From NCBI GenBank assembly GCA_007136095.1, contig SLHP01000076.1:1-54901 (forward strand): DNA of 54,901 nt. Reading direction: 5' to 3'. Numbering within the stretch: position 1 is the first letter of the stretch; every line of letters starts with the position of its first letter. The position numbers and the translations under genes are program-made. This DNA is from Nitriliruptoraceae bacterium (GTDB lineage Bacteria; Actinomycetota; Nitriliruptoria; Nitriliruptorales; Nitriliruptoraceae). Below the pieces are notes generated by a model. The model saw nothing but the letters and a program-made list of their open reading frames with translations, was not told the DNA's origin and searched no databases. Positions 13,881-21,733 of the stretch are shown here, in pieces.

Positions 13881-15053
13881 TCAGCCCGCGATGTCGGTGA
13901 ACAGGCCCTCGACGAACAGTTCCGGGTCGAAGGGGGCGAGGTCGTCGATCTCCTCACCCAGACCCACGAGCTTGACGGGCAACCCCAGTTCGCGCTGGAT
14001 CGCGACGACGATGCCTCCCTTGGACGAGCCGTCGAGCTTGGTCAGGACCACACCGGTCAGCTCGACGGCCTGCATGAAGGCACTGGCCTGTGCGATGCCG
14101 TTCTGACCCGTGGTCGCATCCAGGACGAGCAGGGTCTCCTCGAGCGGGCCGGCCTGCTTCTCGAGCACCCGCTTGACCTTGCCGAGCTCGTCCATCAACG
14201 CGGACTTGTTGTGGAGCCGGCCGGCCGTGTCGACGATGAGCAGATCGGCAGCGCGCTCGGTCGCGGCCGCGTAGCCCTCGAAGGCCACCGCCCCCGGGTC
14301 CGCCCCCTCGTCCTTGCGTACCAGGTGGGCACCGGTGCGCGTCGCCCAGATCCCGAGCTGCTCCGCGGCGGCGGCGCGGAACGTGTCCGCTGCGGCGAGC
14401 ACGACCGTGCGCTGCTCCCGCTGCTCGATGGCGGCCAGTTTGCCGATGGAGGTCGTCTTACCCGTGCCGTTGACGCCGGTGATCAACCAGACCGTCGGCC
14501 CGTCATCGGTCGCGCGCGCCAGTGACCGGTCGTCGCTCTGGAGCGCCGATCGCAGCTCCTGCTTGAGCAGGTCCGTGACCGCCTCCGGGGTCGTGGCGCC
14601 CTCCTCGCGGCTCCGGCGCTTGAGCTCCTCGACGATCTCGGTCGTGGCGGTCACCCCCACATCGGCGCCGATCAGGATCTCCTCCAGTCCCTCCCAGGCG
14701 GCGTCGTTGACCCCGCGACCGAACAGGTCGGCGACCGACACGCCGAGCACGTTCCGGGTCCGCGCCAGGCGACGGTTGAACCGCTCCCCGAGCGACAGCG
14801 GCGGTTCCTCGACCAACGCCTCCGGGGTGTCGGGCACCTCCGGGATGGCGACATCGAGGTCGTCATCGACGGCCTCGTCAGGGACCGGCAGGGTGTCCGT
14901 GCTTCCGGCCGTCGAGCTCTCGGACCGGTCGGGGGGGTCGCCATCACGCTTCGACGAGCGACGCGTCGTGGTGAGCAGGCCAGCTCCCACGAGCACGATC
15001 AGCAGGCCGACGACCGCAACGACGATCGGGATGCCATCGAGAGCTTCGAGCAC
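13881..15053 (-). CDS. ftsY: Signal recognition particle receptor FtsY
   Basis: The 390-residue SRP receptor docks Ffh-ribosome complexes at the membrane. An N-terminal hydrophobic helix (about residues 8-28, IPIVVAVVGLLIVLVGAGLL) anchors it, followed by an acidic, probably disordered linker to about residue 85. The NG domain has LLTTT-basic anchor residues, GVNGTGKTTSIGKLAA, ADTFRAAAAEQL, VDTAGRLHNKSALM and TKLDGSSKGGIVVA. The N-terminal anchor is typical of actinobacterial FtsY. It lies 56 bp downstream of smc and is probably cotranscribed with it. Confidence 0.96.
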   Translation of the reverse strand: MLEALDGIPIVVAVVGLLIVLVGAGLLTTTRRSSKRDGDPPDRSESSTAGSTDTLPVPDEAVDDDLDVAIPEVPDTPEALVEEPPLSLGERFNRRLARTRNVLGVSVADLFGRGVNDAAWEGLEEILIGADVGVTATTEIVEELKRRSREEGATTPEAVTDLLKQELRSALQSDDRSLARATDDGPTVWLITGVNGTGKTTSIGKLAAIEQREQRTVVLAAADTFRAAAAEQLGIWATRTGAHLVRKDEGADPGAVAFEGYAAATERAADLLIVDTAGRLHNKSALMDELGKVKRVLEKQAGPLEETLLVLDATTGQNGIAQASAFMQAVELTGVVLTKLDGSSKGGIVVAIQRELGLPVKLVGLGEEIDDLAPFDPELFVEGLFTDIAG

Positions 15054-15109: not shown

Positions 15110-18100
15110 TCAGCCGACGGGCGAGGGCGCCTCCGCCGATGCGCCGGCCCCGTCGGGATCATCGCTCGGGTCCTCCAACGCCTCGGTCGGGTCGTCGCTG
15201 GCGCGTTCCTCGAGCTGTTGGCTCTTGGCCGCCTGATCGCGGAGCCGTTCGGCGACGACCTTGGTCACCGCATCGGGACCCATCGTGATGCCGTACAGCA
15301 CGTCGGCGATCTCCATCGACCGCTTCTGGTGGGTGACCAGGATGATCTGGGCATGGCCACGGAAGGAGCGGATGACCTTCAGCAGCCGCTGGAGGTTCAC
15401 GTCGTCCAGAGCGGCGTCGACCTCGTCGAGGACGTAGAAGGGGGACGGTCGGGCGCGGAAGATCGCGAACACGAAGGCGAGCACCGTCAGGGACCGCTCG
15501 CCGCCGGAGAGCAGCGACAGCCGCGTCACCTTCTTGCCGGGCGGTCGCGCCTCGACCTCGATGCCCGCGGTCAGCAGGTCATCGCTGCCGGTGAGCACCA
15601 GTCGTCCATGGCCGCCGGGGAAGACCGTCTCGAAGGTCAGCTCGAACTCACGTGCCACGTCGTCGAATGCGGCCTTGAAGACCGCCCGGATCCGATCGTC
15701 GACGGCGTCGACGATCTCCGCGAGATCCCGCTTGGAGCGGCGCAGGTCGTCGAGCTGGTCGGACAGGAACGCGTGCCGTTCCTCCAGGGCCTTGAACTCC
15801 TCGAGCGCCAGCGGGTTCACCCGGCCGAGCAGACCGATCTTGCGGACCAGGACATCCTCGCGTTCGGCGAGCTCGTCGGCGTCGTAGGAGCCGGCGTCGG
15901 GGTGGTCCGCACGTACCTCGTCCGGCGTCAGTGACAGCTCGCTGCGCAGACGCCCCTGGAGGGACTCCAGTCGGGAGGTGACGTCGGCCCGGCGCATCTG
16001 GGAGGCGTGCCGGTGCTCACGGAGCTCGTCGAGCTGCGCGACGACCTCGGCGAGGTCGTCGCGGGCCTCGGCCAGCTCCGCACGCCTCGCGACGACCTGC
16101 GCCTGCAGGCCGTCCCGCTCGGTCGCGGCCTCGGCGGACGCCTGCTGCAGGGCGTCGAGCGCCTCGCGGGCGACGATCGCCAACTCACCGCACCTCTCGA
16201 TGCCGAGACGCCGCGCCTCCCGACGCCGCGCGGCCTGCGCCAGCGCTGCCTCGACCTCGTCGGCTTCGCCCCGCAGCGCCGTCTCCTGCGCTTCGAGGTG
16301 GCGGACCTGCTCGCTGGTCCGCTCGAGGGTGACGCGCGCGTTGAGCTCGTGTTCGCGTGCCACCTCGACGCGGTCGTCGAGGTCGGAGGCCAGTTCGTCC
16401 GGGCCATCCTCGATGTCGTCGGGGTCGTCGGCGGGGCCTCGACCGTGCAGTTCGGACAGCGCGACCCGGTCGCGTTCGAGTACCTCGTCGAGCTCTTCCT
16501 TCTGGGCGGCGACCACCTCACGCTGGGTCGTGAGGGAATGCAGTTCCTTGTTCAGGCGGGCGAGCCGTTCGGCCGCACCGGTGATGCGCGCGTCCGACTC
16601 GTTGATGCGCTCGGTCGCGCCCTTCAGCTCGCGACGCGCCTCCTGCAGAGCCGCGGCGGCCGCCTCCCGCTCGGTCGCGATGCGTTCGAGGTCCGCCGCG
16701 AGTTCGTTGGCGCGGGCCTCGGCCTGGTCGGCGGCCGTGGCGGTCAGCACGGAGGACCGTTCGTCCGTGCCGCCCGCCCGGAAGCCGTGCGGACCCGCCA
16801 GGTCGCCCTGCGGGGTCACGAACGTCAGGTCGACCTCGCGGCCGTGGAGCAGGACCGCGGTGTCCCAGTCCGGCACGACGTAGGTCCGCGCCAGCACCTG
16901 GCGCAGCGCCGCGGTGACGCCCGCGTCCGCCTCGCCGTCACCGGCCGGCTCCAACAGCTCGGCGACCGGTCGGGCCCCGGCCGCGTCCAGCCGTTCGCGC
17001 AGGTCATCGTCGATCGGAGCCGCGGCGCGACGGTCCTGGCGGGCCGCGAGGACGATCGCGGTGCCGGCCTCGACCTCGCGCAGCCAGGCAACGGCCCGGC
17101 GGGCGCGCTCCGAGGTCGTGACCACCACGGCCTCACCGAGTGGCCCGAGTGCGGCAGCCACGGCACCATCGTGGCCGCCGGCCACCCGGACGTGGTCGGC
17201 AACCGGCCCGAGGACCCCGTCGACCTCGCCGGACAGCAACGCGGCCCCGCCCCCGTCGGCCTCCTGGAGTGCCGCCCGCAGGGCCTGTGCGCGTGCGAGC
17301 TGTGACGCCCGCTCGGCTTCCAGGTCGCGGGACCGGGCGGCCAGGTCGGCCTCCACCGCGGCCCGTTCGTCGACCTGAGCCTCGGCTGCCTCCAGCGCCG
17401 TGGTGAGCTCGACCTCGCTGGTGTCGAGGCGGTGGATCTCGTCCTGGACGCCGGAGACCTCACGCTCTGCCTCGGCGATCCGGTTGTCCAGCGTCGACAA
17501 CGTCGAGGTGACGCGCCCGAGCTCGGCTTCGGCGGACGCGGTCGACCCGCGTAGTGCGGACACCTCGCCTTCCCAGCGCAGCACGCGCTCGCGCTGCTCG
17601 GCCCGTCGCCGGCGCTCCGCCTGCAGCTTCTGCTCGTGGGCGCGGCGGGCCAGTTCCGCCTCGCGACGGCCGGCCGAGGCCTCCTCGAGCGCCTCCCGGT
17701 CGGTGGTCAGGCTCTGGGCACGCTCGGCACGTTGCTCGGCGATGCGGTCCGCCTGGGTGCGCAGTTCCTCCGGTGGGCGACCGGCGAGCGGCTCCTCGAC
17801 GTACTCGACGAGGTGGCGTCGCTTCGCCTCGATCAGATCCGAGGTTCCGCGCAGCCGTTCCGCGAGCGACGTGAGTCCGTGGACCGTGGTCTGCGCGGCT
17901 TCGACCGCGGGTCCCAGGCGCCCCAGATCCACTTCCAGGGTCGCGACCCGCTCCTGGGCCCGGTCGCGGCGCGCCTCCAGCTCGGCCTGGGCGGACCCGG
18001 TCGATGAGTCGTCCTGATCCTCAGCGTCGACCAGCCGGGTGAGCCGGTCGAGCTCCCGGGCGGCGATGCGCACCTTGACGTCGCGGAGCTCGGCCTGCAG

Positions 18101-18781
18101 TGCGGCATGCCGGTCGGCGGCCTCAGCCTGACGCTCGAGCGGTCGTAGCTGTCGGCGCAGCTCCCGGAGGACGGTCTTCAGCTTCTCGATGTGCCCATCG
18201 ACCTGATCGAGCTTGCGCAGGGCGCGCTCACGTCGCCGGCGATGCTTGAGGATCCCGGCCGCCTCCTCGATGTAGCGGCGGCGCTCTTCGGGCTTGGCGT
18301 TGAGGATCTCGTCGAGTTGCCCCTGCCCGACGATCGTGTGCAGTTCCCGACCGAGGCCGGTGTCCGACAGCAGTTCCTGCACGTCCAGGGCGCGGACGTC
18401 CTCGCCGTTGATCTGGTAGGTCGCCTCACCGTCGGTCTGGATCGTCCGCGCGACGCGCACCTCCGAGAAGGCGCCCGCGCTGTCCGCCGTCGCGAGACCC
18501 GCGCCCGACAGGTACCCGTCGGTGTTGTCGATGACGATCTCGACGTGGGCCCGGTTGGAACGGTTGCGGGTGGGCGAACCGGCGAAGACCACGTCCGACA
18601 TGGCGCCGCCGCGGACCTTCTTCGCGGAATTGGTGCCGAGGACCCACGACAGGGCGTCGACGACGTTGGACTTGCCAGAGCCGTTCGGACCGACGATCAC
18701 CGTGATCCCGGGTTCGACCTCCAGGACCGTCCGGTCGGCGAAGGACTTGAACCCGCGCATCGAGAGTGACCTGAGGAACAC
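15110..18781 (-). CDS. smc: Chromosome segregation protein SMC
   Basis: The 1223-residue SMC ATPase forms the condensin core that organises and segregates chromosomes. The N-terminal head has RGFKSFADRTVLEVEPG and Walker A GPNGSGKSNVVDAL. Two long coiled coils (about 170-500 and 670-1030) flank the hinge near residues 510-640. The C-terminal head holds signature LSLLSGGERSLTVLAFVFAI and Walker B PFYVLDEVDAALDD. GTG at 18781 has a perfect GGAGGAA site 5 nt upstream and is preferred over the longer frame. The tail is acidic and low-complexity. The next gene downstream is ftsY, as in other actinobacteria. Confidence 0.97.
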   Translation of the reverse strand: MFLRSLSMRGFKSFADRTVLEVEPGITVIVGPNGSGKSNVVDALSWVLGTNSAKKVRGGAMSDVVFAGSPTRNRSNRAHVEIVIDNTDGYLSGAGLATADSAGAFSEVRVARTIQTDGEATYQINGEDVRALDVQELLSDTGLGRELHTIVGQGQLDEILNAKPEERRRYIEEAAGILKHRRRRERALRKLDQVDGHIEKLKTVLRELRRQLRPLERQAEAADRHAALQAELRDVKVRIAARELDRLTRLVDAEDQDDSSTGSAQAELEARRDRAQERVATLEVDLGRLGPAVEAAQTTVHGLTSLAERLRGTSDLIEAKRRHLVEYVEEPLAGRPPEELRTQADRIAEQRAERAQSLTTDREALEEASAGRREAELARRAHEQKLQAERRRRAEQRERVLRWEGEVSALRGSTASAEAELGRVTSTLSTLDNRIAEAEREVSGVQDEIHRLDTSEVELTTALEAAEAQVDERAAVEADLAARSRDLEAERASQLARAQALRAALQEADGGGAALLSGEVDGVLGPVADHVRVAGGHDGAVAAALGPLGEAVVVTTSERARRAVAWLREVEAGTAIVLAARQDRRAAAPIDDDLRERLDAAGARPVAELLEPAGDGEADAGVTAALRQVLARTYVVPDWDTAVLLHGREVDLTFVTPQGDLAGPHGFRAGGTDERSSVLTATAADQAEARANELAADLERIATEREAAAAALQEARRELKGATERINESDARITGAAERLARLNKELHSLTTQREVVAAQKEELDEVLERDRVALSELHGRGPADDPDDIEDGPDELASDLDDRVEVAREHELNARVTLERTSEQVRHLEAQETALRGEADEVEAALAQAARRREARRLGIERCGELAIVAREALDALQQASAEAATERDGLQAQVVARRAELAEARDDLAEVVAQLDELREHRHASQMRRADVTSRLESLQGRLRSELSLTPDEVRADHPDAGSYDADELAEREDVLVRKIGLLGRVNPLALEEFKALEERHAFLSDQLDDLRRSKRDLAEIVDAVDDRIRAVFKAAFDDVAREFELTFETVFPGGHGRLVLTGSDDLLTAGIEVEARPPGKKVTRLSLLSGGERSLTVLAFVFAIFRARPSPFYVLDEVDAALDDVNLQRLLKVIRSFRGHAQIILVTHQKRSMEIADVLYGITMGPDAVTKVVAERLRDQAAKSQQLEERASDDPTEALEDPSDDPDGAGASAEAPSPVG

Positions 18782-18987
18782 GCTTCCTCCACAGGGCGCA
18801 CGGCGCATCGACGACGGGGACGGGTGCGGTCAGCGTGATGCAGGCCCGCGTTCTGGCGGCAACGCCACCGACGCACGGACGCACGCCACCGAGCCCGCAG
18901 CCTAGCGATGCCGACGGCCACCTCGCCCGTGCACACGATGTCGCGGTCCGGGGCAAGGGTCCAAGGTTCCCGGAACCGGCGGCGCGG

Positions 18988-19161
18988 TCAGCTGTGGGCG
19001 GGTTCCCGGTCCTCGGCGGCCGCCTGACGACGGTCACGGGCGGCTTCCGCCTCGGCGAGCGCACGTTCGAGGTCCGCGACACGCTGACGCAGCGCGCGCA
19101 CCTCGTCGAGGAGTTCCAGGCTCGCTGGTGCGACATGGGAACCCATCAGGGCCTTGCCCAT
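18988..19161 (-). CDS. Short coiled-coil protein upstream of smc (57 aa)
   Basis: An ATG at 19161 with a GGGAGG ribosome-binding site 7 nt upstream opens a 57-residue frame ending at a TGA 206 bp before the smc start. MGKALMGSHVAPAS is followed by a regular heptad stretch (LELLDEVRALRQRVADLER, then ALAEAEAARDRRQAAAED). No database family can be named with confidence; short actinobacterial proteins with this MGKAL...LxxEVRxLRxRVxDLE layout may exist. The strong ribosome-binding site and the coiled-coil pattern argue that it is real. Its position upstream of smc suggests a chromosome- or division-related partner, which is only inference. Confidence 0.7.
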   Translation of the reverse strand: MGKALMGSHVAPASLELLDEVRALRQRVADLERALAEAEAARDRRQAAAEDREPAHS

Positions 19162-19493: not shown

Positions 19494-19778
19494 TCAACCG
19501 GAGCGGATCTCGAAGCGGTGGTGACCGGCCGGCTCCACGTCAGCGCCCTCGACCTCCGCGACCCGCGCCGCCGGTGGACCTCCGCCGACGATCCAGTCCT
19601 CGACCGCCCGGACGTCGTCGGCGGCCCCCTCCAGCCACACCTCCACCGTGCCGTCCGGCCGGTTGGCCGCCCAGCCGACGACGGAGCGCTGCTTGGCCCG
19701 CTGCCGGGTCGACGCCCGGAAGAACACACCCTGGACCTGACCACTGACGGTCAGGTGTCTCGCGACGTGATCCACCAT
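19494..19778 (-). CDS. acyP: Acylphosphatase
   Basis: This 94-residue enzyme hydrolyses acyl phosphates such as carbamoyl phosphate or 1,3-bisphosphoglycerate. The family signature is VSGQVQGVFFRASTRQRA, in which Arg of FFRA binds the phosphate; GWAANRPDGTVEVWLEGA contains the catalytic Asn. The start may be ATG 19778 or a TTG at 19787; the latter has the better-spaced GAGGG, so the N-terminus is uncertain by three residues. The acyP-smc neighbourhood is conserved in mycobacteria. Confidence 0.93.
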   Translation of the reverse strand: MVDHVARHLTVSGQVQGVFFRASTRQRAKQRSVVGWAANRPDGTVEVWLEGAADDVRAVEDWIVGGGPPAARVAEVEGADVEPAGHHRFEIRSG

Positions 19779-19802: not shown

Positions 19803-20648
19803 TCAGATCATGCACTGCTCGCAGTGGTAGGTGTAGATGCCCTTCTTGATCCGCGTCCGCACGATCGGCTTGCGGCACCGGGAGCAGGGCAGTCCGGCCC
19901 GGCCGTAGACCCGGAGGTGATCGGCAGCCTCACCGTCGTCGTCGATGGCCGCGTCCGCCTCGGTATCGTCCAGCGAGGATCCGGCCGCCTTCATCGCCAG
20001 GACGATGACCTCCTGCATGGCGCGGTACAGCCGTCGGATCTCCTGGGTGGACAGTGAGGCCGAGCCGTGATCGTGGCGGAGACCCGCCTCCCAGAGGATC
20101 TCGTCGCTGTAGACGGGCCCGAGCCCCGCGATGCGGGTCGGGTCGGTCAGCACGAGCTTCAACGGTCCTGCGGCGTCGGCCAGGAACCGGCCGAACTCCA
20201 TCCAGGTGGGGTTGTCGTCCAGGGGATCGAGCGCATCCGGCGAGACCCCGGCGGCCTCGAGGGCCGTCTCGGTCGCGACGACCCCGGTGTGGATCGACGG
20301 GTCGTTGCCCGGCTCCGAGAGGTGGATCGCACCACCGATCGTGAAGGTCACAACCAGGTGGGTGTCGGGACCCGCCTGCTCGGTCGCGGTCTGCCGGTGG
20401 AGGGAGCCGTGTTCCCCCGCATCGATCACCCAGGTCTGGTCCTCATCGAGATCCAGGAAGATGACCGTCCCGCGCCGCCTGGCCGCCTCGACCTTGCGCC
20501 CTTCGAGCGCCTTGACGAGTTCGGGCCGGTTGCGGTGGAACGGCCGCACGATGCTGGGCGTCTCGACGATGACGTCCTTGATGCGCTTGCCGACGACCTC
20601 TTTCTCCAGGTCACGGCGCAGCACCTCTACCTCGGGGAGTTCGAGCAC
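19803..20648 (-). CDS. Fpg/MutM-like protein lacking the catalytic residues
   Basis: The 281-residue protein aligns over its length with formamidopyrimidine-DNA glycosylase: LELPEVEVLRRDLEKEVVG at the start, PTRIAGLG-VYSDEILWEAG in the middle and a C-terminal zinc finger (Cys255, 258, 276, 279). It sits in the place of fpg between acyP and rnc. Key positions are changed. The obligatory Pro after Met is Leu2 (codon CTC). The hairpin lysine of RRGK is Thr61. The intercalating Met of HLGMSG is Glu79 (DAGEHG). The DNA-contacting Asn of GLGNIYSDE is Pro178, and the zinc-finger Arg is absent (KKGIYTYHC). Glu3 is kept. It may bind DNA without cutting, or use another chemistry. The start is GTG 20648; no in-frame alternative restores the proline. 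Confidence 0.88.
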   Translation of the reverse strand: MLELPEVEVLRRDLEKEVVGKRIKDVIVETPSIVRPFHRNRPELVKALEGRKVEAARRRGTVIFLDLDEDQTWVIDAGEHGSLHRQTATEQAGPDTHLVVTFTIGGAIHLSEPGNDPSIHTGVVATETALEAAGVSPDALDPLDDNPTWMEFGRFLADAAGPLKLVLTDPTRIAGLGPVYSDEILWEAGLRHDHGSASLSTQEIRRLYRAMQEVIVLAMKAAGSSLDDTEADAAIDDDGEAADHLRVYGRAGLPCSRCRKPIVRTRIKKGIYTYHCEQCMI

Positions 20649-20807
20649 CGGGTGCGGCCTTCCAGACGTGTACGACAGGGCGTGATCGACAGGGTGTGCG
20701 TTGCGGGACGCGAGCCACGGGCGTGACCGTGGATCGGACCGCCGTCCAAACTAGCCGACGGCCCCTCATCGGCGGGTGCCGACGGTCACCCACGGCCCGG
20801 ATCGCGA

Positions 20808-21539
20808 TCAGACGGCGTCCGGCGTGCCGGTCGCGGCATCGTCGAACAGCCGGTGTGCTTCCCGGGCCGCGCGTTGTTCCGCCTCCTTCTTGCTGCGACC
20901 CTCACCCCGACCGGCGATCGCTCCATCGATGGTGACGATCGCGGTGAAGGTCTTGGCATGGTCCGGGCCGGTGTCGGTCAACTCGTAGCGGGGCAGGACC
21001 TCGAAGCTGGCGGCCGACAGCTCCTGCAGGCTCGTCTTGAAGTCCAGCGCCGCGTGGCTGGCGGCGACCTCGACCAGGCGTTCGGCGAACAGCCGTTCCA
21101 CCAGGTCGTAGGCCGTGGCGAACCCCTGATCGACGTAGACGGCACCGATCACCGCCTCGAGCGTGTCCGCGAGGATCGAATCCTTGTCCGCGCCACCCGA
21201 TGCCGACTCACCCCGGCCGAGCCGGATGAAGCGGCCAAGCGACAGTCCCCGGGCGACCTGGGCGAGGGATTCGGCGCGGACCGCGGCGGCGCGCAGTTTC
21301 GCCAGTCGCCCCTCCTGCTCGTCCGGGTGCGAACTGTAGATCTCGTCGGTCACCACGAGCCCGAGCACGGCGTCGCCCAGGAACTCGAGGCGCTCGTTCG
21401 TCGGACGACCGCCCTGCTCGAAGGCCCAGGACCGGTGGGTCAGGGCCAACTCGAGCAGGTCGATGTCATCGAGGTGCACGTCGAGCCGGGCCGCGAGCTC
21501 CGCAGCCGTCGGAGAGGAACCCGCCGCGAGGTCAGCCAC
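20808..21539 (-). CDS. rnc: Ribonuclease III
   Basis: The 243-residue enzyme cuts double-stranded RNA, processing rRNA precursors. The catalytic domain has the signature [21 protein letters not shown] and, later, [16 protein letters not shown] with the metal-binding Asp and Glu. The C-terminal double-stranded RNA-binding domain runs from [10 protein letters not shown] to [22 protein letters not shown] 21539 is the likely start: it follows the rpmF stop by 14 bp, and upstream codons only read through rpmF out of frame. yceD, rpmF and rnc form one operon. Confidence 0.95.
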
Positions 21540-21553
21540 GCCCGCAACCGATG

Positions 21554-21733
21554 TCAGTCGACCTCGACGACGGTGCGGCCGGCGTAGGTCCCACAGGTCG
21601 CACAGACGGTGTGGGGCCGCGTCGGCGCCTTGCAGCGCGGACAGGTCGCGTACGTGGGCGCCTTGAGCTTGGCCCACTGCGCCTTGCGGTGACGGGTGCG
21701 CGAGCGCGACATCTTGCGCTTCGGGACGGCCAT
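21554..21733 (-). CDS. rpmF: 50S ribosomal protein L32 (bL32)
   Basis: The 59-residue protein begins [20 protein letters not shown], the L32 signature, and carries two Cys pairs (CPRC and CATC) of a zinc ribbon before the end [10 protein letters not shown]. Because the zinc ligands are present it is the C+ form. It lies between yceD and rnc, the conserved order in many bacteria. Confidence 0.97.

Follow-up and report, generated by a model that had tools for sequence, protein, structure and literature searches.

The window analyzed here, a stretch of 54,901 nucleotides from a Nitriliruptoraceae bacterium (contig SLHP01000076.1), contains an undisrupted open reading frame (ORF) that runs on the minus strand from 20648 to 19803 and encodes a 281-amino-acid homolog of the DNA glycosylase Fpg (19803..20648, GTG start, stop codon included). 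The gene is referred to below as the pseudo-Fpg gene. A Shine-Dalgarno-like GGAAGG, read from the sequence (20658..20663, minus strand), lies 9 bases 5' of the GTG, and inspection of the ORF found no in-frame ATG, GTG, or TTG upstream of it; these two features fix the start codon and rule out its misassignment. The gene for RNase III (rnc; 20808..21560, with an approximate 5' end in an ORF open to 21935) lies directly upstream, and an acylphosphatase gene (19494..19778) lies immediately downstream, followed by smc (15110..18808) and an ORF (13881..15053) that we take to be ftsY, all on the minus strand. Between the acylphosphatase gene and smc, a short minus-strand ORF (18988-19161) encodes 57 amino acids (MGKALMGSHVAPASLELLDEVRALRQRVADLERALAEAEAARDRRQ...) with a coiled-coil look.

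The window protein belongs to the Fpg/Nei fold superfamily, as judged by its Pfam Fapy_DNA_glyco (71 bits) and H2TH (50 bits) domains, both above the cutoff, and by its MutM fold. Its closest relatives in the PDB were MutM proteins (E value, 2e-30). The score against the Fpg equivalog model TIGR00577 was below the cutoff (144 versus 203.3 bits), as were those against the Nei/Nei2 models PRK10445 (48.9 versus 252 bits) and NF040775 (45.3 versus 400 bits).

Alignment to G. stearothermophilus MutM (numbering with Met as 1) placed Leu2 at the position of the nucleophile Pro (P2; codon 2, 20643..20645), Thr61 at hairpin Lys60 (20466..20468), Glu79 at intercalating Met77 (20412..20414), Pro178 at H2TH Asn174 (20115..20117), and Ile271 at zinc-finger Arg264 (19836..19838), all on the minus strand. 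An earlier note made from the sequence had named these five replacements, and each was confirmed; its claim of near-total catalytic loss held for the residues listed, and the list proved incomplete, with the intercalating residues Arg112 to Phe114 also replaced, by Gly114 to Asp116 (20301..20309, minus strand; R112 by Gly114 and F114 by Asp116). Leu at position 2 would also prevent removal of Met. Retained in the window protein were Glu3, Glu6, and the four zinc cysteines (Cys255, Cys258, Cys276, and Cys279) of the zinc finger (19812..19886, minus strand), whose knuckle residues Arg257 and Arg259 are conserved across the pseudo-Fpg clade.

A protein search revealed a close relative (36 to 87% identity) encoded in 63 of the 66 genomes of the class, in each of which it is the product of the gene after rnc; the three genomes lacking it are incomplete assemblies (89, 78, and 59%). 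Missing from the class relatives examined were the intercalating triad, the finger Arg, the H2TH Asn, and the hairpin Lys; in rare cases, this Lys alone is retained. Codon 2 specified Leu in all 30 counted relatives of the window's family, by CTC, CTG, CTT, or TTG, and these four synonymous codons indicate that selection holds the amino acid. An additional member of the family (L077) has Pro2 and is without the other catalytic residues. Other N termini in the class read VTQ, VTY, VSH, VTN, VTL, or VSL, followed by LPE, with loss of Glu3, which is replaced by Gln, His, Tyr, Asn, or Leu in class families f3 to f5. The zinc cysteines were wholly or partly lost in L032 and L033 (f1), in L074, L075, L076, and L079 (f4), and in L057 and L058. 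The note's observation that Glu3 and the zinc cysteines remain thus holds for the window protein but does not extend to all relatives, as each has been lost in some of them. Zincless fingers arose at least twice among the pseudo-Fpg branches.

Loss of catalytic residues in an assembly as fragmented as that of the window (269 contigs) would be expected of a decaying or misassembled gene. The replacements are far beyond chance, however, since the same ones recur in dozens of genomes; the family is present in 63 of the 66 class genomes, single-contig genomes among them; dN/dS values between close pairs of pseudo-Fpg genes were 0.08 to 0.21; and codon 2 has undergone synonymous turnover. Sequence error and decay were ruled out on the basis of this conservation, the dN/dS values, and the codon 2 turnover, leaving this explanation a negligible probability, and the note's description of the gene as intact and not simply decaying stands. 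Within one genus, the range for pseudo-Fpg (0.15 to 0.21) was similar to that for the intact second Fpg encoded in the genomes (0.16 to 0.21). With its catalytic residues lost and its fold and purifying selection kept in many species, the window protein would fit the description of a pseudoenzyme, and, judging from these residues, pseudo-Fpg very probably has no glycosylase or AP lyase activity of the usual mechanism.

An enzyme with new chemistry, in which another residue excises the base or cleaves the strand, was also considered, as the earlier note had suggested. In its favor, Glu6, Glu8, and Arg58 show little or no variation, and cleavage of the initiator Met would leave Thr or Ser at the N terminus of some members; however, Glu8 and Arg58 are structural in intact Fpgs too (LSC2/LSC3; PMC3188539), and positions 2, 3, 61, 79, 114, 116, 178, and 271 vary freely, with no new invariant polar or other active-site residue in place of those lost. 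At positions 2 and 3, the relatives carry Leu-Glu, Thr-Gln, Thr-Tyr, Ser-His, Pro-Glu, Pro-Ala, or Phe-Glu, and a new nucleophile there was rejected because a conserved candidate was absent. New chemistry was therefore judged to be highly improbable.

A profile search of 297 Actinomycetota genomes, followed by reading of the residues, identified the same active-site loss outside the class in families f6, f17, f62, and f66, in two Acidimicrobiia records (L057 and L058), and in two of the six members of family f50. The active site was kept in f11, f12 (minus the Pro), f14, f20, f27, f40, f43, f44, f58, f63, and more. Among pseudo-Fpg loci with sufficient flanks, rnc was just upstream on the same strand in all but two, both of family f17 and with one extra gene between rnc and the pseudo-Fpg gene; smc was usually downstream, as at loci with intact Fpgs. 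The extra f17 genes (L226, 1001-1798; L227, 2106-2903) encode tandem Fpg/Nei-like proteins (V/MPELPELDVLAENLAA) that keep the Pro, Lys, Asn, and finger Arg. The active site has been lost at least three times, two of them inside f50, where both losses were nested among intact f50 sisters on well-supported branches of the tree. A single ancient loss was rejected, as the constraint of one pseudo-Fpg clade lowered the lnL by 98 (approximately unbiased [AU] test, p-AU = 1.4e-7). The pseudo-Fpgs of f62, f66, and the Acidimicrobiia may either derive from the loss in the main clade or represent a separate one (support, 60/53). The pseudo-Fpgs share both rnc-smc synteny and a tree with the intact locus Fpgs, which argues for loss of the active site in place instead of replacement from outside. 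The earlier proposal that a pseudo-glycosylase has replaced the repair enzyme in the fpg-rnc-smc neighborhood is accordingly right as to the presence of a pseudo-glycosylase and needs amending as to its origin, which was the locus Fpg itself.

A second Fpg was encoded elsewhere in 25 of 27 genomes with a pseudo-Fpg (above the TIGR00577 cutoff or, in two of them, as frame-broken pieces) and, above that cutoff, in none of the 22 genomes whose locus Fpg is intact (Fisher test, P = 6e-12, with kinship among genomes ignored). The intact second Fpgs retain all catalytic residues. The window's genome, in which the note had proposed looking for a second canonical fpg, carries one on contig C242. Three further Nei-like members of the Fpg/Nei family are encoded in this genome (G000), on contigs C69, C145, and C174. 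The second canonical Fpgs of G138 and G168 (L224 and L225) are broken by frameshifts, which may reflect either sequencing error or true decay. The second Fpg/Nei protein of G322 is only Nei-like, and in G060 (2.1 Mb, 96% complete) pseudo-Fpg is the sole Fpg/Nei protein, so that the dead copy is the one kept there; on account of these two genomes, which have no second canonical Fpg, release of the locus copy by a second one is not universal. The second Fpg of the f50 member G326 was probably acquired separately, since it is of a different sequence type.

Modeling of the structure, also proposed in the note, predicted an Fpg fold (AlphaFold2 pLDDT, 90.6), with MutM as the nearest solved fold (Foldseek TM score, 0.83) and only Fpg or Nei proteins among the best matches listed. 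Model confidence was very low for segment 226-236, which falls in the lesion specificity loop region. The mean net charge of pseudo-Fpgs was -6, versus +9 for the second Fpgs of the same genomes, and was lower in 28 of 29 pairs (P = 3e-6). With the phosphate-pinching residues gone and the protein turned acidic, canonical DNA binding is doubtful, and canonical lesion binding and excision appear very unlikely. The claim of a conserved DNA-binding pseudo-glycosylase therefore survives in its second half, and its DNA-binding part is weakened. These observations bear equally on the idea that pseudo-Fpg is a noncleaving sensor of DNA lesions or structures, whose Fpg groove would bind and then signal or shield. 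Retention of the overall fold and H2TH, and of the zinc cysteines in most members, is consistent with a sensor; against it, the residues that pinch the phosphates and evert the base (K60, H74, N174, R264, M77, R112, and F114) are nearly all lost, the specificity loop segment is that of very low predicted confidence, and the net charge has fallen to about -6. A sensor of this kind is unlikely.

A comparison between 46 pseudo-Fpgs and 31 intact locus Fpgs separated the positions that were lost from those that selection keeps. Lost positions were those of the active site and DNA contacts (H74, R35, K60, M77, R112, F114, N174, and R264 in MutM numbering), whereas the structural residues Glu8, Arg58, Asp141, Gly175, Gly177, and Glu183 were retained. 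Near invariant in pseudo-Fpgs were Trp149, Gln202, Arg205, Arg206, Arg209, Glu213, Lys220, Arg257, and Arg259. Trp149 (20202..20204, minus strand) was invariant in all pseudo-Fpgs compared and also occurred in the majority of intact locus Fpgs from sister families. In helix 201-220 (19989..20048, minus strand), Gln202, Arg205, Arg206, Arg209, Glu213, and Lys220 form a stripe opposite the hydrophobic side and fall on one face (helical wheel on the helix of the AlphaFold2 model; resultant, 0.86; P = 0.00035). As exposure was estimated by helical wheel and not from coordinates, the stripe could be structural instead of a docking face.

Among 27 intact locus Fpgs from the sister families and f43, f50, and f58, Arg205 was present in 27, Arg209 in 25, and Trp149, Glu213, and Arg259 in 24 each, with Gln202 and Lys220 less constant. 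This conservation in intact sisters indicates that the retained set predates the loss of catalysis. The set was not conserved in f27, other actinobacterial Fpgs, second Fpgs, or MutM, with the exceptions of Arg206 and Arg257, which are common in Fpgs generally. When the set was defined without f50 and then tested in that family, both independent f50 pseudo-Fpgs kept all eight set positions that do not vary among the intact f50 members, against about two-thirds of all such positions (P = 0.036 and 0.044; a weak test).

The neighborhood and a locally basic stripe within the acidic protein also suggest a factor associated with RNA or the ribosome that acts with RNase III, in the manner in which NFACT/RqcH reuses an Fpg/H2TH-type fold. 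NFACT/RqcH and ribosomal protein S13 contain a related H2TH-type helical element and gave weak profile matches, all below curated cutoffs; the NFACT_N match fell on the H2TH part of the window protein (17.9 versus 31 bits; E value, 0.0014). While rnc is a constant neighbor in all lineages, the synteny is inherited, as intact Fpgs have the same neighborhood, and NFACT-specific features were not found in a protein whose listed best Foldseek matches were all Fpg or Nei. A relationship to RqcH/NFACT was rejected on these grounds (below the cutoff and absent among the fold matches listed), and an RNA-associated role is quite unlikely.

Another job for pseudo-Fpg is very probable, given an active site that is nearly gone, strong selection, and a second fpg that is usually intact. 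Pseudo-Fpg is probably the ancestral Fpg of the rnc-smc locus, turned pseudoglycosylase and keeping a second, preexisting, noncatalytic function. The locus Fpg would already have had this function, with Trp149, the zinc-knuckle residues Arg257 and Arg259, and the exposed side of helix 201-220 as its seat. Takeover of 8-oxoguanine excision by a second Fpg would have left the locus copy free to lose catalysis and lesion binding, and the copy would then have been kept for its conserved surface. Pseudo-Fpg might most readily be pictured as an adaptor with a docking surface for another protein or a nucleic acid, a mode of action we lean toward slightly, and a candidate partner could perhaps come from the RNase III/Smc/FtsY operon. 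More broadly, we consider it an even question whether the Fpg at the rnc-smc locus of Actinomycetota carries a hidden noncatalytic function that predates catalytic loss, becomes the dedicated role of the protein repeatedly once a second Fpg takes over, and resides in a Trp/Arg/Glu surface and not in the DNA groove.

Pseudo-Fpg resembles Fpg/MutM (TIGR00577; structures 1L1T and 1R2Y of the G. stearothermophilus protein) in full-length homology, in fold at the TM score above, in its H2TH, and in the four zinc cysteines of the window protein, and it resembles other actinobacterial Fpg1 proteins in its rnc-smc locus; it differs from Fpg/MutM in lacking the nucleophile, hairpin Lys, intercalating triad, H2TH Asn, and finger Arg, in its subcutoff score, and in its acidity. 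Actinobacterial Fpg paralogs have been described (PMC2734929, PMC3188539). In Mycobacterium tuberculosis, Fpg1 (Rv2924c) adjoins rnc as pseudo-Fpg does but is catalytic, and Fpg2 (Rv0944) is a paralog without the N-terminal catalytic part that lies away from the rnc-smc locus; Fpg2 is truncated in this species, but M. smegmatis and M. avium have a full-length version (PMC2734929). Neither Fpg1 nor Fpg2 of M. tuberculosis is thus a full-length locus pseudo-Fpg, of which no description was found in the open-access literature. Pseudo-Fpg would constitute a pseudoenzyme subfamily of Fpg that is apparently undescribed in that literature.

Mycobacterial Nei2 is likewise an Fpg/Nei protein with an in vivo role independent of the AP lyase activity of its N-terminal Pro: the P2A and P2C variants, which are without that activity, complement in vivo in M. 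smegmatis, and P2A retains some glycosylase activity (PMC11323726). Unlike pseudo-Fpg, Nei2 keeps Pro2, Glu3, and Lys51, and its function requires Glu3, being lost in E3A (PMC11323726). Because base excision can survive the loss of just the Pro (PMC11323726), the case for pseudo-Fpg is built on all the residues having been lost together. A noncatalytic scaffold role has been proposed for NEIL3, as cited in PMC11323726.

The textbook definition of Fpg as a repair enzyme rests on its chemistry, and a conserved, full-length version that has evolved repeatedly without that chemistry implies another selected function, with the conserved set pointing to residues that may carry it. Natural experiments are at hand in f50, which has intact and dead versions, and in G060, which has only a dead one. 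Domain-based annotation will label pseudo-Fpg genes as DNA glycosylases.

NEIL3 also has a nonproline N terminus, with Val2 as the nucleophile. Met removal is required in NEIL3 to expose the Val, and Leu2 of the window protein would block this step. In f12, the locus Fpgs (L100, L101, L105 to L109, and L111) have no Pro codon, and Glu directly follows the ATG or GTG start (MELPEVEV). They keep every catalytic residue other than the Pro, and in five such genomes scanned, the locus Fpg was the only Fpg above the TIGR00577 cutoff. The N-terminal Met amine may act in the role of Pro1 in these proteins, comparable to the Val of NEIL3.
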